Assembly: GCF_000797445.1 (NCBI RefSeq)
Contig: NZ_JSWF01000022.1
Span: 1 to 40,578, forward strand
From: Lacinutrix jangbogonensis
GTDB lineage: Bacteria; Bacteroidota; Bacteroidia; Flavobacteriales; Flavobacteriaceae
Length of the DNA: 40,578 bases
Direction: 5' to 3'
The notes beneath the pieces are model-generated. The model was not told the origin of the DNA, did not search any database, and saw nothing but the letters and a program-made list of their open reading frames with translations. A program made the translations under genes and the position numbers. Each line of letters starts with the position of its first letter. Positions within the stretch are counted from its first letter, which is position 1. This document shows, piece after piece, positions 23,532 through 26,968 of the stretch.

Positions 23532-23846
23532 ATGCACAGAGTTATTGTAGATTATAAAAAACTAACACCAAAAGTATTGACCTTGTTAACTCAGAAGTAT
23601 CCTGATGGCTATGGCGATGACGATATTCTTGTATTCGATAACCATAAAAACGAAACCATAGAAGCCGTCGAAGTTAAAACTGAAGACATCATTTATCTAG
23701 TAAAAATAAGCAGCAAGCTTCATTACACAATGGCAAGTTTAGGTGATTCAGATAATTTAATTTTAAATGAAGACGGACACATTTTAATTGAAGAATCCTT
23801 TAATAACGAAGAAGAAGAAGAAGAAGAAGAAGAAGAAGAAGAGTAA
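23532..23846 (+). CDS. Acidic small protein with poly-Glu tail
   Basis: I do not recognise the family with certainty. A 104-residue soluble protein: a compact alpha/beta-looking domain (residues 1-88, with KYPDGYGDDDI and VDYKKLTP) followed by twelve consecutive Glu at the end. The tail is encoded by eleven GAA codons and one GAG (23808-23843), a triplet repeat that can change in length without breaking the frame. The protein is strongly acidic overall. It lies downstream of aroB on the same strand and converges on the DinB-like gene with a 9-nt spacing, so no terminator is visible there. I see no motif for enzyme activity. Confidence 0.7.
   Translation: MHRVIVDYKKLTPKVLTLLTQKYPDGYGDDDILVFDNHKNETIEAVEVKTEDIIYLVKISSKLHYTMASLGDSDNLILNEDGHILIEESFNNEEEEEEEEEEEE
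23808..23843 (+). repeat. (GAA)11 triplet microsatellite in coding DNA
   Basis: Eleven perfect GAA units followed by GAG, then the stop codon. The repeat forms the Glu tail of the small acidic protein. Confidence 0.95.
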
Positions 23847-24543: not shown

Positions 24544-25023
24544 CTATAAAGAATTAAAAATATCGTGCATTAAACGTTTTTTATCGTTTATACTTTCTTC
24601 TAAAGAAATCATTGTCTCTGTTCTATAAACACCTTCAATAGCATCAAGCATAAAAATAATATCTTTTGCATGCTCAGTATTTTTTGCTCTAATTTTACAA
24701 AAAACATTAAATTTACCAGTAGTAACGTGTGCTACAGTAACAAAAGGAATCTCGTTAATACGCTCTAATACAAATTTTGTTTGCGACGTGTTTTTAAGGA
24801 ACACACCAACATAAGCAATAAATGAATATCCTAATTTTCTATAATCTAAAGTAAGAGAAGAACCCTTAATAATTCCTGCATCTTCCATTTTCTTTACTCT
24901 AACATGAACCGTTCCAGCAGATATTAATAATTTTTTTGCAATATCTGTAAAAGGAACTCTTGTGTTATCGATCAACATATCAAGAATTTGATGATCTATT
25001 TCGTCTAATTTAAATTTCGCCAT
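24544..25023 (-). CDS. Lrp/AsnC-family transcriptional regulator
   Basis: A 159-residue regulator starting at the ATG at 25023; a 13-codon extension upstream is not family-like. Seen: N-terminal winged helix-turn-helix (about 5-55, IDHQILDMLIDNTRVPFTDIA) and a C-terminal RAM/AsnC ligand domain (about 65-150) with VTTGKFNVFC, a variant of the usual TG-x-YD motif. Such proteins form octamers and respond to amino acids; the effector here is unknown. It is monocistronic, with a terminator after it and a candidate TATTTTTG box 25 nt before its start. No amino acid genes are immediately adjacent; the M14 carboxypeptidase gene lies upstream with a separate promoter. Confidence 0.9.
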   Translation of the reverse strand: MAKFKLDEIDHQILDMLIDNTRVPFTDIAKKLLISAGTVHVRVKKMEDAGIIKGSSLTLDYRKLGYSFIAYVGVFLKNTSQTKFVLERINEIPFVTVAHVTTGKFNVFCKIRAKNTEHAKDIIFMLDAIEGVYRTETMISLEESINDKKRLMHDIFNSL

Positions 25024-25094: not shown

Positions 25095-26237
25095 TTAATC
25101 AAATTTTAATGACAATTTAACATTATTCACAATCACGAAATCGTTTTCGTGACCTATTGAAACAGGCGTATTTCGTTCGTCTAAAACCACGTTACCATTA
25201 GCATTCAAACAGTTATGAGAAAAAAAAGCATCAAGATTATCGATTTCTTCTAGTTTTGGAATAAAACGCACCTTTTTATCAATTAATTTTTCTTGATACT
25301 GAACAGCAATGTTTAATTTCTCGTTATCATGAAGCACATCTTTAATAATTACATCAAAAAACAGCTTTTCATTCTTTGGAATAGCTAAATAATTTTGATA
25401 GTCATCTAAATCTATTGCATCATCGACAATAGTATTTAAAGCAACTAAATAAGACTTAAACACCAAACGCCTTACTTCCTCCCTATCGTAATCGTTAGCT
25501 AAGTGACCAGCTTCAAACAAAATAGTTGGCACATTAAAACTTTGAAACGTATCACCTACACAGTTAATATTAAAAGCATCATCATAAATACCAACTTGAT
25601 TTGGGATCTCCTTTTGCAACATAGCATTCATCTTTACAATAATAGACATAGCAATCTTCCTATTATCTGTAATTGTACAGTCTTTGTCCTGAGCGGGAGA
25701 TAAAAAGGACAAACTCGCTGAATTATTAGTTTTTCCTGCGCTAAATATAGTGCGCTGTCCATGTAAATTGAAACAATAATCTGGCTTAAAGTTCATAAAC
25801 ACATCTCTAAGCACTTTACTTTCTGGCTGTGTTAGATTTTGAGCATCTCGGTTTAAATCAACATTATTAGCATTTAATCGCGTGTAAACTTTAGCGCCAT
25901 CTGGATTTAAAATAGGAATAATAACAATTGTACAGGCTTTTAAAATAGATTCTGAAAGATTATTATCCGCAAAAAAGTTAAGTAAATCGAAAATAGACTT
26001 GGTTGTGGTAGATTCGTTTCCATGCATTTGAGACCACATTAATATCTTTTTTTCGCCAGAACCAACTCTAATCGAATAAATGTTTTCTTCCAAAACAGAT
26101 TCTCCAACAACCTCAATATTGAAATTACTAGCATGTTTTTTTAAAAGTGGCTCAATATGTTCTGAGTGGATATAACGTCCATATATCGTAGTTTCTTTAT
26201 GTGTTTTAAATATAGTATTAAACGCTTTCTCCTGCAT
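25095..26237 (-). CDS. M14-family zinc carboxypeptidase
   Basis: A 380-residue metallocarboxypeptidase without a signal peptide, so probably cytoplasmic. Seen: zinc ligands H72 and E75 (MHGNEST), the Asn-Arg substrate-binding pair N129-R130 (NVDLNRD), zinc ligand H159 (FNLHGQR), and the catalytic Glu at E242 (TILFEAGH). Residues about 260-380 form an extra C-terminal domain. Family members cleave C-terminal residues from peptides or peptidoglycan stems; the substrate is not clear here. It is divergent from an XRE regulator across a 314-nt spacer with six copies of the operator-like repeat TTACA-N2-TGTAA, four of them beside this gene, suggesting that it is the main target of that regulator. 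The -7 box TACATTTG lies inside the nearest copy. Confidence 0.88.
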   Translation of the reverse strand: MQEKAFNTIFKTHKETTIYGRYIHSEHIEPLLKKHASNFNIEVVGESVLEENIYSIRVGSGEKKILMWSQMHGNESTTTKSIFDLLNFFADNNLSESILKACTIVIIPILNPDGAKVYTRLNANNVDLNRDAQNLTQPESKVLRDVFMNFKPDYCFNLHGQRTIFSAGKTNNSASLSFLSPAQDKDCTITDNRKIAMSIIVKMNAMLQKEIPNQVGIYDDAFNINCVGDTFQSFNVPTILFEAGHLANDYDREEVRRLVFKSYLVALNTIVDDAIDLDDYQNYLAIPKNEKLFFDVIIKDVLHDNEKLNIAVQYQEKLIDKKVRFIPKLEEIDNLDAFFSHNCLNANGNVVLDERNTPVSIGHENDFVIVNNVKLSLKFD

Positions 26238-26253
26238 ACATGTTTTGTTTGTG

Positions 26254-26324
26254 TTACAAATGTAAACAATATCTATTTTACATTTGTAAACACGAATTGT
26301 TACAATTGTAATTTACAACTGTAA
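26254..26324. promoter_or_regulatory. Four inverted-repeat operators at the M14 peptidase promoter
   Basis: Four copies of TTACA-N2-TGTAA: 26254-26265 (centre AA), 26278-26289 (TT), 26300-26311 (AT) and 26313-26324 (AC). All arms are perfect 5-bp inverted repeats. Centres are spaced 24, 22 and 13 nt. The first contains the box TACATTTG (26264-26257 on the minus strand), so bound protein would cover the peptidase promoter. Confidence 0.75.
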
Positions 26325-26500
26325 CCACAAAACATAAATATTGCATTAAATCTATCACTAGATAAGCATACATAAGTAATAATTAAATAATAACCATTTA
26401 TTTTATTTGTTTTCAGGTAATTAACATACTCATATTGAATCTTAGGTTTAATAATAAATAGCTTTTATTTAAGAATTATATGTAAATACTAATGATAAAC

Positions 26501-26547
26501 ACACAAATGTAAACACTCCAAGTCCGTTTGATTGTTTACATTTGTAT
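26501..26547 (+). promoter_or_regulatory. Two operator-like repeats at the XRE regulator promoter
   Basis: Two more copies of the same motif: an imperfect one (ACACA-AA-TGTAA, 26501-26512) and 26536-26547 (TTACA-TT-TGTAT). Together they form a perfect 13-bp inverted repeat, ACAAATGTAAACA (26503-26515) and TGTTTACATTTGT (26533-26545), 17 nt apart. The box TACATTTG at 26537-26544 matches TAnnTTTG and lies 7 nt before the ATG at 26552. Confidence 0.7.
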
Positions 26548-26551
26548 AACA

Positions 26552-26968
26552 ATGATAAACAACGAAGAATTTACCAAAAGACTTAAAAAAGTTATCGATT
26601 ATTATGGCGAAAGCGCTTCTTCTTTTGCAGAAAAAATTGATGTCCAACGTTCTAGTATTTCACATATCCTTTCAGGTAGAAATAAGCCAAGTTTAGAATT
26701 TGTACTAAAAGTCCTCTCCTCTTTTCCTGAAGTAGAATTGTATTGGTTAATGAATGGAAAAGGAAATTTTCCTTCTGAGAAAATTCAAGATCAAAACACA
26801 GAAGAAAAACCAAAACCGGGAAATCAGAATTTATTTCCGGAAACTAAAACTAAAAAAATTATAACAGAAATTTCTGAAACAAAAAGCAATACTTCAAATT
26901 CTAAAAAAGAAATTGATCGCATCATCATATTCTATAAAGACGGTAGTTTTTCAAATTTCGAGAATTAA
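26552..26968 (+). CDS. XRE-family helix-turn-helix regulator
   Basis: A 138-residue protein from the ATG at 26552; an earlier in-frame start at 26528 lies inside or upstream of the likely promoter box. Seen: an N-terminal lambda-repressor-like HTH (about 6-62: SSFAEKIDVQRSSISHILSG), then ELYWLMNGKGNFP, a low-complexity charged linker (about 75-118) and a short conserved end (EIDRIIIFYKDGSFSNFEN). The tail has no known fold and may hold the effector or oligomer function. It is divergent from the M14 peptidase and its own promoter is overlapped by the same repeat, so autoregulation is likely. It is followed after 109 nt by a lipoprotein gene with its own -7 box. Confidence 0.85.
   Translation: MINNEEFTKRLKKVIDYYGESASSFAEKIDVQRSSISHILSGRNKPSLEFVLKVLSSFPEVELYWLMNGKGNFPSEKIQDQNTEEKPKPGNQNLFPETKTKKIITEISETKSNTSNSKKEIDRIIIFYKDGSFSNFEN

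Follow-up and report, generated by a model that had tools for sequence, protein, structure and literature searches.

Between two divergent genes of Lacinutrix jangbogonensis, one for an M14-type zinc carboxypeptidase and one for a small XRE-type regulator, lie six copies of a single palindrome, four close to the peptidase gene and two close to the regulator gene. Comparison with related genomes indicates that these palindromes are very probably the landing sites of the regulator encoded alongside them. From the same comparison we infer binding, repression and looping: it seems likely that the XRE protein represses both itself and the peptidase through a DNA loop between the two operator clusters. 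The window, that is, the whole stretch of DNA analysed, comprises 40,578 nucleotides (contig NZ_JSWF01000022.1); the features discussed here are collected in table 1.

The putative operator array and its surroundings

The two genes are separated by a spacer of 314 nt (26238–26551). All six inverted repeats reported in the spacer by the first-pass annotation were found where it had placed them, and the starts of the four M14-side sites reproduce its spacings of 24, 22 and 13 nt. Four exact TTACANNTGTAA sites in the spacer compare with a mean of 0.01 and a maximum of 2 in dinucleotide shuffles of the same 314 nt, none of 5,000 of which reached four. In the whole window, on the other hand, sites with two mismatches or fewer are not enriched (55 versus 56.6 expected), so that the weaker R1 and R2 gain credibility only through their conservation in relatives. 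R1, poor in the window, is near-perfect in many of these.

Table 1. Positions in the window of the genes, palindromic sites and bend site discussed in the text.
Feature	Positions	Strand	Remarks
M14-type zinc carboxypeptidase gene, 380 aa	25095–26237	minus	PF00246 at 47.2 bits, cut-off 21.6; ATG at 26237
XRE-type regulator gene, 138 aa	26552–26968	plus	assigned by Pfam HTH_3, conservation and predicted structure; ATG at 26552
Lrp/AsnC-type regulator gene, downstream of M14	24544–25023	minus, as M14	
Site L1, outermost putative operator on M14 side	26254–26265		exact; overlaps M14 -7 box 26257–26264, TACATTTG on minus strand
Site L2, M14 side	26278–26289		exact; centre dinucleotide variable among relatives
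Third M14-side site	26300–26311		exact
Fourth M14-side site, innermost on that side	26313–26324		exact
Site R1	26501–26512		two mismatches (ACACAAATGTAA); 223 bp from L2
Site R2	26536–26547		one mismatch (TTACATTTGTAT); includes XRE -7 box TACATTTG at 26537–26544
IHF-like bend site TTTCAGGTAATTA	26411–26423	plus	one mismatch to WATCARNNNNTTR; starts 90 bp upstream of R1

Does the palindrome occur elsewhere in the genome? The exact form is present at 32 places in 4.02 Mb, versus 7 for the reversed pattern. The array accounts for four of these. Among the remaining 28, 22 overlap an open reading frame of at least 60 aa and six (L002, L004, L029, L271, L277 and L281) overlap none; no further site with a score above 11 lies closer than 150 nt to any of the 28. 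The array is unique in the genome; the single motif is not. The first-pass annotation had named an equal density of the motif elsewhere as grounds for abandoning its reading. This does not apply to the array, the other 28 places being single, although the single motif is indeed commoner than its reversed control. Given the six places clear of any such frame, there may be a small wider regulon beyond the array locus. At two places, L271 and L277 (G000 C25:15929 and C30:33661), lone exact palindromes stand 28 and 34 nt upstream of open reading frames, and these are possible further targets of the regulator.

The Lrp/AsnC-type gene downstream of the peptidase gene is probably either a passenger or part of the same transcript. 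Farther along, at 23532–23846, a 104-aa open reading frame without a Pfam or NCBIfam match has consecutive glutamates at its C-terminal end (NNEEEEEEEEEEEE), which probably represent a simple repeat.

The sites follow the XRE gene across genomes

How widely is this arrangement kept? In the genus, both the XRE gene and the divergent M14 gene are present in 13 of 13 genomes. The first-pass annotation had looked to orthologous spacers for conservation, and this was found: in 11 of the 13 the six sites recur, at two mismatches or fewer, at -298, -274, -252, -239, -51 and -16 from the XRE start. Of the other two genomes, one shows a one-base displacement of its M14-side sites, and the second (L016) is arranged as in other genera. 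Between the clusters most of the sequence has diverged in the genus while the site offsets stay.

Within the family, 141 of 149 genomes have the XRE gene, and some of the eight without it are incomplete. It is mostly single-copy and its neighbourhood is conserved, which argues against a mobile element. We analysed 121 loci (13 from the genus and 108 from the rest of the family; set A), drawn from 152 distinct genomes with an XRE match after the 31 weakest family matches had been left out; two loci with short upstream sequence were dropped, leaving 119 usable. The M14 gene is divergent at 200–400 nt in 115 of the 121. The six exceptions comprise three contig ends (L064, L089, L117), a longer spacer (L080), a lost M14 gene (L120) and an inserted gene (L143). 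Two or more sites with at most one mismatch are present at 116 of the 119 usable loci, versus 26 for the reversed pattern and none for either of two scrambled palindromes. A held-out set was taken as the best 80 of at least 585 confirmed stretches; after removal of four duplicates it numbers 76 named loci, in 74 of which M14 is divergent. Outside the family, we sampled 20 of the 73 genomes of the order with an XRE match. A strong site (score above 15) lies less than 400 nt upstream of 18 of these 20 homologs, which are 30–58% identical to the XRE protein; the corresponding shuffles gave a mean of 0.03 and a maximum of 1.

If the two genes part company, which of them do the sites follow? In G034 no M14 gene is detectable (the genome is 88% complete), and the XRE gene and the sites are kept. 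The sites are also kept at four order-level loci (L177, L178, L180 and L182) whose upstream stretch contains no M14 match. In G037 (L143 and L154) another gene separates the XRE and M14 genes; the sites remain with XRE, and the M14 copy, which carries two in-frame stops, is site-free over 700 nt upstream. The inserted gene of G037 is lipoprotein-like and does not match the lipoprotein usually encoded downstream of XRE.

Five genomes have an M14 relative without an XRE match. In three of them (G062, G119 and G076) M14 has as its immediate, divergent neighbour a homolog of the lipoprotein gene usually found after XRE (41–47% identical, E 1e-27 to 1e-36). With XRE missing, the best leftover sites in these three score -4.9, 1.2 and -0.4; XRE and its sites have therefore gone together. 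The fourth, G045, is weaker evidence, since its M14 match has one in-frame stop and there is neither an XRE gene, nor a site (best score 3.6), nor a lipoprotein gene nearby. The fifth, G106, shows one site scoring 14.4 upstream of M14 with XRE undetected; we rejected it as a clean XRE-less case because the genome is 83% complete and the contig ends at the locus. An apparent separation of XRE and M14 in G120 was also set aside, as it looks like a contig break in the spacer.

Might a different repressor of the same genome bind the array? Repressors of the BlaI/MecI/CopY family have the operator core TACAnnTGTA, which resembles the array palindrome, and in the genome PF03965 has four near-full-length matches whose frames are open, besides three weaker ones. 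Yet two of the four near-full-length loci carry boxes flanked by C/G (TACTACAAATGTAGTA, CTCTACATTTGTAGAG) and no TACAnnTGTA lies within 1.5 kb of the other two. None of the four is accompanied by the array, the nearest approach being one single site scoring 12.2 in L034, whereas the array tracks XRE across the order. The XRE protein itself has no PF03965 match at E ≤ 0.001. The examined BlaI-type loci thus have other boxes or none, and we rejected a binder of this family, which we regard as very improbable. The resemblance extends to the core; the protein family and the flanking base (CTACAnnTGTAG at two loci) differ. At these two BlaI/MecI-type loci, L036 (position 1872) and L037 (position 1461), the boxes are one base per arm off the XRE operator and form a natural contrast in specificity.

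Promoter overlap and helical phasing

What might a regulator bound at these sites do? A flavobacterial -7 consensus, TAnnTTTG at -12 to -5, is given in PMC9723704. Where two sites stand 24 bp apart, the dinucleotide at the centre of the outer M14-side site is AA in all 74 set-A pairs and in 67 of the 68 held-out ones. At the XRE-side site near -40 the centre is TT at 80 of 81 set-A and 69 of 71 held-out loci, and at L2 it is mixed. With these centres both end sites, each read in the direction of its gene, spell TACATTTG and match the -7 box. In the genus of the window the XRE -7 box is instead the site at -16, where the centre is TT at all 12 loci that have one (11 of the genus and L041). This position implies a very short leader, with the transcript starting within a few bases of the ATG; leaderless mRNAs make up 5.5% in F. 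psychrophilum, by the figure given in PMC9723704.

Since the end sites cover the -7 boxes, a bound repressor should exclude the sigma factor and block both promoters, and we infer repression rather than activation by the XRE protein. Could it rather be an activator or dual regulator that aids RNA polymerase at one promoter? Several sites do lie upstream of each -7 box, and the predicted fold resembles that of restriction-system C proteins, some of which activate. We consider this improbable, as the sites with the best conservation lie right on the -7 boxes, an arrangement that speaks for occlusion. That the XRE protein controls both genes through the sites, as the first-pass annotation proposed, is on the other hand strongly supported, the support being comparative: the sites track XRE and sit on both -7 boxes.

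The first-pass annotation also suggested cooperative binding of the first three sites on one face of the DNA. This part of its reading fared poorly, for 24, 22 and 13 bp correspond to 2.3, 2.1 and 1.2 turns, and the intervals within a cluster (13, 24 and 35) do not amount to whole turns. What the comparison does support is helical phasing at longer range, of the M14-side cluster relative to the XRE-side cluster about 200 bp away. We measured the distance from L2, which is next to the outermost M14-side site and 24 bp inward of it, to R1, the XRE-side site that faces it. It could be obtained for 100 of the 121 loci. R1 is missing, under the rule used, from 19 of the 119 usable loci, and about half of these share a layout with sites near -185 (or -173) and -5. 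This layout is seen in L113, L119, L122, L124, L126, L127, L138 and L139, with facing sites about 168–180 bp apart and the usual R1 absent. In many relatives (e.g. L046, L094 and L095) the sequence at -5 is TTACAATGGTAA, an operator-like palindrome over the XRE start codon, about 35 bp from R1.

The 100 distances peak near 203, 213, 224 and 234 bp, that of the window being 223 bp. The best period is 10.45 with a resultant of 0.82, compared with a maximum of 0.32 in 10,000 uniform simulations. Three loci of the 100 fall between classes (at 208, 217 and 219, one each). In the held-out set, where one locus was too short and four lacked R1, the 71 distances comprise 2 at 202–203, 28 at 210–215, 36 at 222–225 and 5 at 232–235; none lies between classes and the best period is 10.3. 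A measurement from the M14 start codon sidesteps the selection of a left site; the periodicity then persists in weaker form, with a resultant of 0.55 for 86 of 98 loci. The innermost facing sites give a less regular pattern (0.45).

How have these distances changed in evolution? On a first, smaller tree, 16 of 20 inferred changes larger than 2 bp amount to 9–12 or 21–22 bp. The combined tree has 154 rows, 17 of the 171 distances having been left off for lack of a protein, or of one long enough. On it, 23 of 25 large changes come within 1.5 bp of 10.5, 21 or 31.5. One third would be expected for uniform sizes (p about 1.5e-9). This value is a guide only, since the null is crude and near relatives may be shared between the two sets. 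Two of the 25, of 5 and 15 bp, break the phasing. This suggests that evolution keeps the distance between the site groups at an integral number of turns, as expected for a DNA loop.

Is a loop needed? The XRE protein might bind and repress both promoters locally, the spacing reflecting promoter layout or slow divergence. Operators over both -7 boxes could suffice for this, and few sites are kept in some relatives. Local repression predicts no phase over 200 bp, yet nearly all the large changes are whole turns, free as the intervening sequence is to change, and the held-out set agrees; and an IHF-like motif stands at a fixed offset between the clusters at most loci. We judge this explanation unlikely, though it is the rival to which we give most weight. 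Nor are the palindromes likely to act as RNA elements such as hairpins or terminators. Intergenic inverted repeats can be transcribed, but here the arms are conserved in their letters and do not covary, the spacing tracks helical turns, promoter boxes fall on the end sites, and no site is left in the three genomes without XRE at the locus. An RNA role seems to us scarcely credible.

The preferred reading, repression through a loop, gives a place to the IHF-like motif. The IHF consensus, as given in PMC9519438, is WATCARNNNNTTR. A conserved block about 90 bp upstream of R1 matches it with at most one mismatch at 73 of 100 loci (shuffles: mean 2.3, maximum 8), although the motif was recognised only after the block had been seen. 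It recurs at the same offset, within a tolerance of a few bp, at 52 of 71 held-out loci. It is absent from 27 of the 100 set-A and 19 of the 71 held-out loci, and most matches carry one mismatch. The motif is off-centre in the proposed loop. Relative to R1, its position mostly varies by no more than two bases; relative to L2, it takes values grouped at intervals of about ten bases. The turn-sized changes thus occurred mainly between the motif and the M14-side cluster. The genome has two genes of the HU/IHF family, and either IHF or HU may occupy the bend site.

The regulator, the proposed loop and known systems

The XRE protein matches PF01381 (HTH_3) at 28.9 bits (cut-off 23), which places it among XRE/Cro-C1-type helix-turn-helix (HTH) proteins. 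HTH_3, HTH_19 and HTH_31 are its only Pfam matches at E ≤ 0.001. GalR, a regulator to which we return below, is a LacI-type protein; no LacI-type HTH or ligand-binding profile was found in the XRE protein by Pfam at that threshold. The HTH spans residues 4–68; beyond it come a linker that varies and, at the C-terminal end (123–137), a conserved beta hairpin. An 87-row alignment shows R33, S34, S37, H38, G42, R43, N44, P46 and L48 of the HTH to be invariant, and the conserved tail reads IERIVIFYxDGSF. Block means of the AlphaFold2 model are 86–94 for the HTH, 50–55 (low confidence) for the linker and 86 for the hairpin. On this model the hairpin is a natural candidate for dimer or tetramer contacts. 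The top Foldseek folds are C.BclI, C.AhdI, SinR and 434 Cro (probability 1.00, E 1.5e-3 to 1e-2, about 60–75 columns), none reaching E ≤ 0.001, and a profile search of solved structures gave weak matches only. The peptidase is an M14 zinc carboxypeptidase by profile, well above the PF00246 cut-off.

Several other identities were considered for the XRE protein and rejected. A HigA-type antitoxin is weakly resembled in the HTH (TIGR02607 at 19.1 bits, below the cut-off of 47.7), but the divergent partner is a peptidase and not a HigB toxin. For anti-phage defence, the protein gave weak HTH matches only. For phage origin, the protein does match profiles of phage repressors, but the matches (best phrog_2328, E 6.5e-12) indicate shared HTH ancestry only.

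How might the loop work? The six palindromes, of consensus GTTTACAwwTGTAAAC, would be operators of the neighbouring XRE protein. Dimers on the outer M14-side site and on the promoter-overlapping XRE-side site would cover both -7 boxes and turn both genes off. With the clusters whole helical turns apart, the bound proteins would face each other, and a bend of IHF/HU type between the clusters would help to close a loop of roughly 20 turns and so strengthen repression. Contact across the loop would probably be made by the conserved C-terminal beta hairpin of the regulator. As to the inducing signal, our guess is a product, perhaps a peptide, that is linked to the M14 peptidase.

Phage 434 Cro, SinR and the restriction-modification C proteins are small and regulate through groups of operators close to the genes that encode them. 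The XRE protein is like them in its HTH_3 domain and fold, and unlike them in its linker and C-terminal beta hairpin, in its palindrome TTACAnnTGTAA, in being encoded by a chromosomal gene paired with M14 and in having a family-wide spacing. A parallel in mechanism would be the gal repressosome of E. coli, in which (PMC4693257) GalR binds two operators with HU at the apex of the loop, two promoters are repressed and the helical arrangement is important; the promoter starts are 5 bp apart and the loop is 113 bp. Read from sequence alone, our locus is similar in its two operator positions, the helical arrangement and the two promoters that would be repressed, and at most loci a candidate site for an HU-type bending protein lies between the operators, its natural spacing classes holding the operator groups in helical phase as in gal. 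It differs in having an XRE-type regulator, divergent promoters, a predicted loop of about 200–240 bp and arrays in place of two operators. The mechanism may therefore be called gal-repressosome-like, with regulator family, promoter geometry and operator arrays that depart from the known case.

A full-text search of the main text of openly accessible papers returned no paper with TTACANNTGTAA, and within the same scope the matches listed for XRE regulators, looping, IHF in these bacteria and M14 pairing contained nothing on the locus. The strings 'XRE', 'palindrom' and 'TGTAA' do not occur in the main text of PMC9723704.

What would such a loop mean for the family? Although the regulator is present in 141 of 149 family genomes, the profile libraries searched assign only its HTH domain. 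We would put at about even the chance that it is a core regulator throughout the Flavobacteriaceae that forms a repression loop over divergent promoters, in which the palindromes serve both as operators and as -7 boxes, an IHF/HU bend lies inside, the loop length evolves almost only by whole turns and the hairpin is a new bridging tail for XRE repressors. If the proposal is true, the locus would offer an operator, a regulator and target open to testing, and a repression loop whose rule of spacing is apparent from sequence alone, and the comparative record would amount to a natural helical-phasing experiment. In our judgement, a spacing that steps by helical turns over many genera is an unusual comparative sign of DNA looping, and it could help to find other loops in genomes without experiments.
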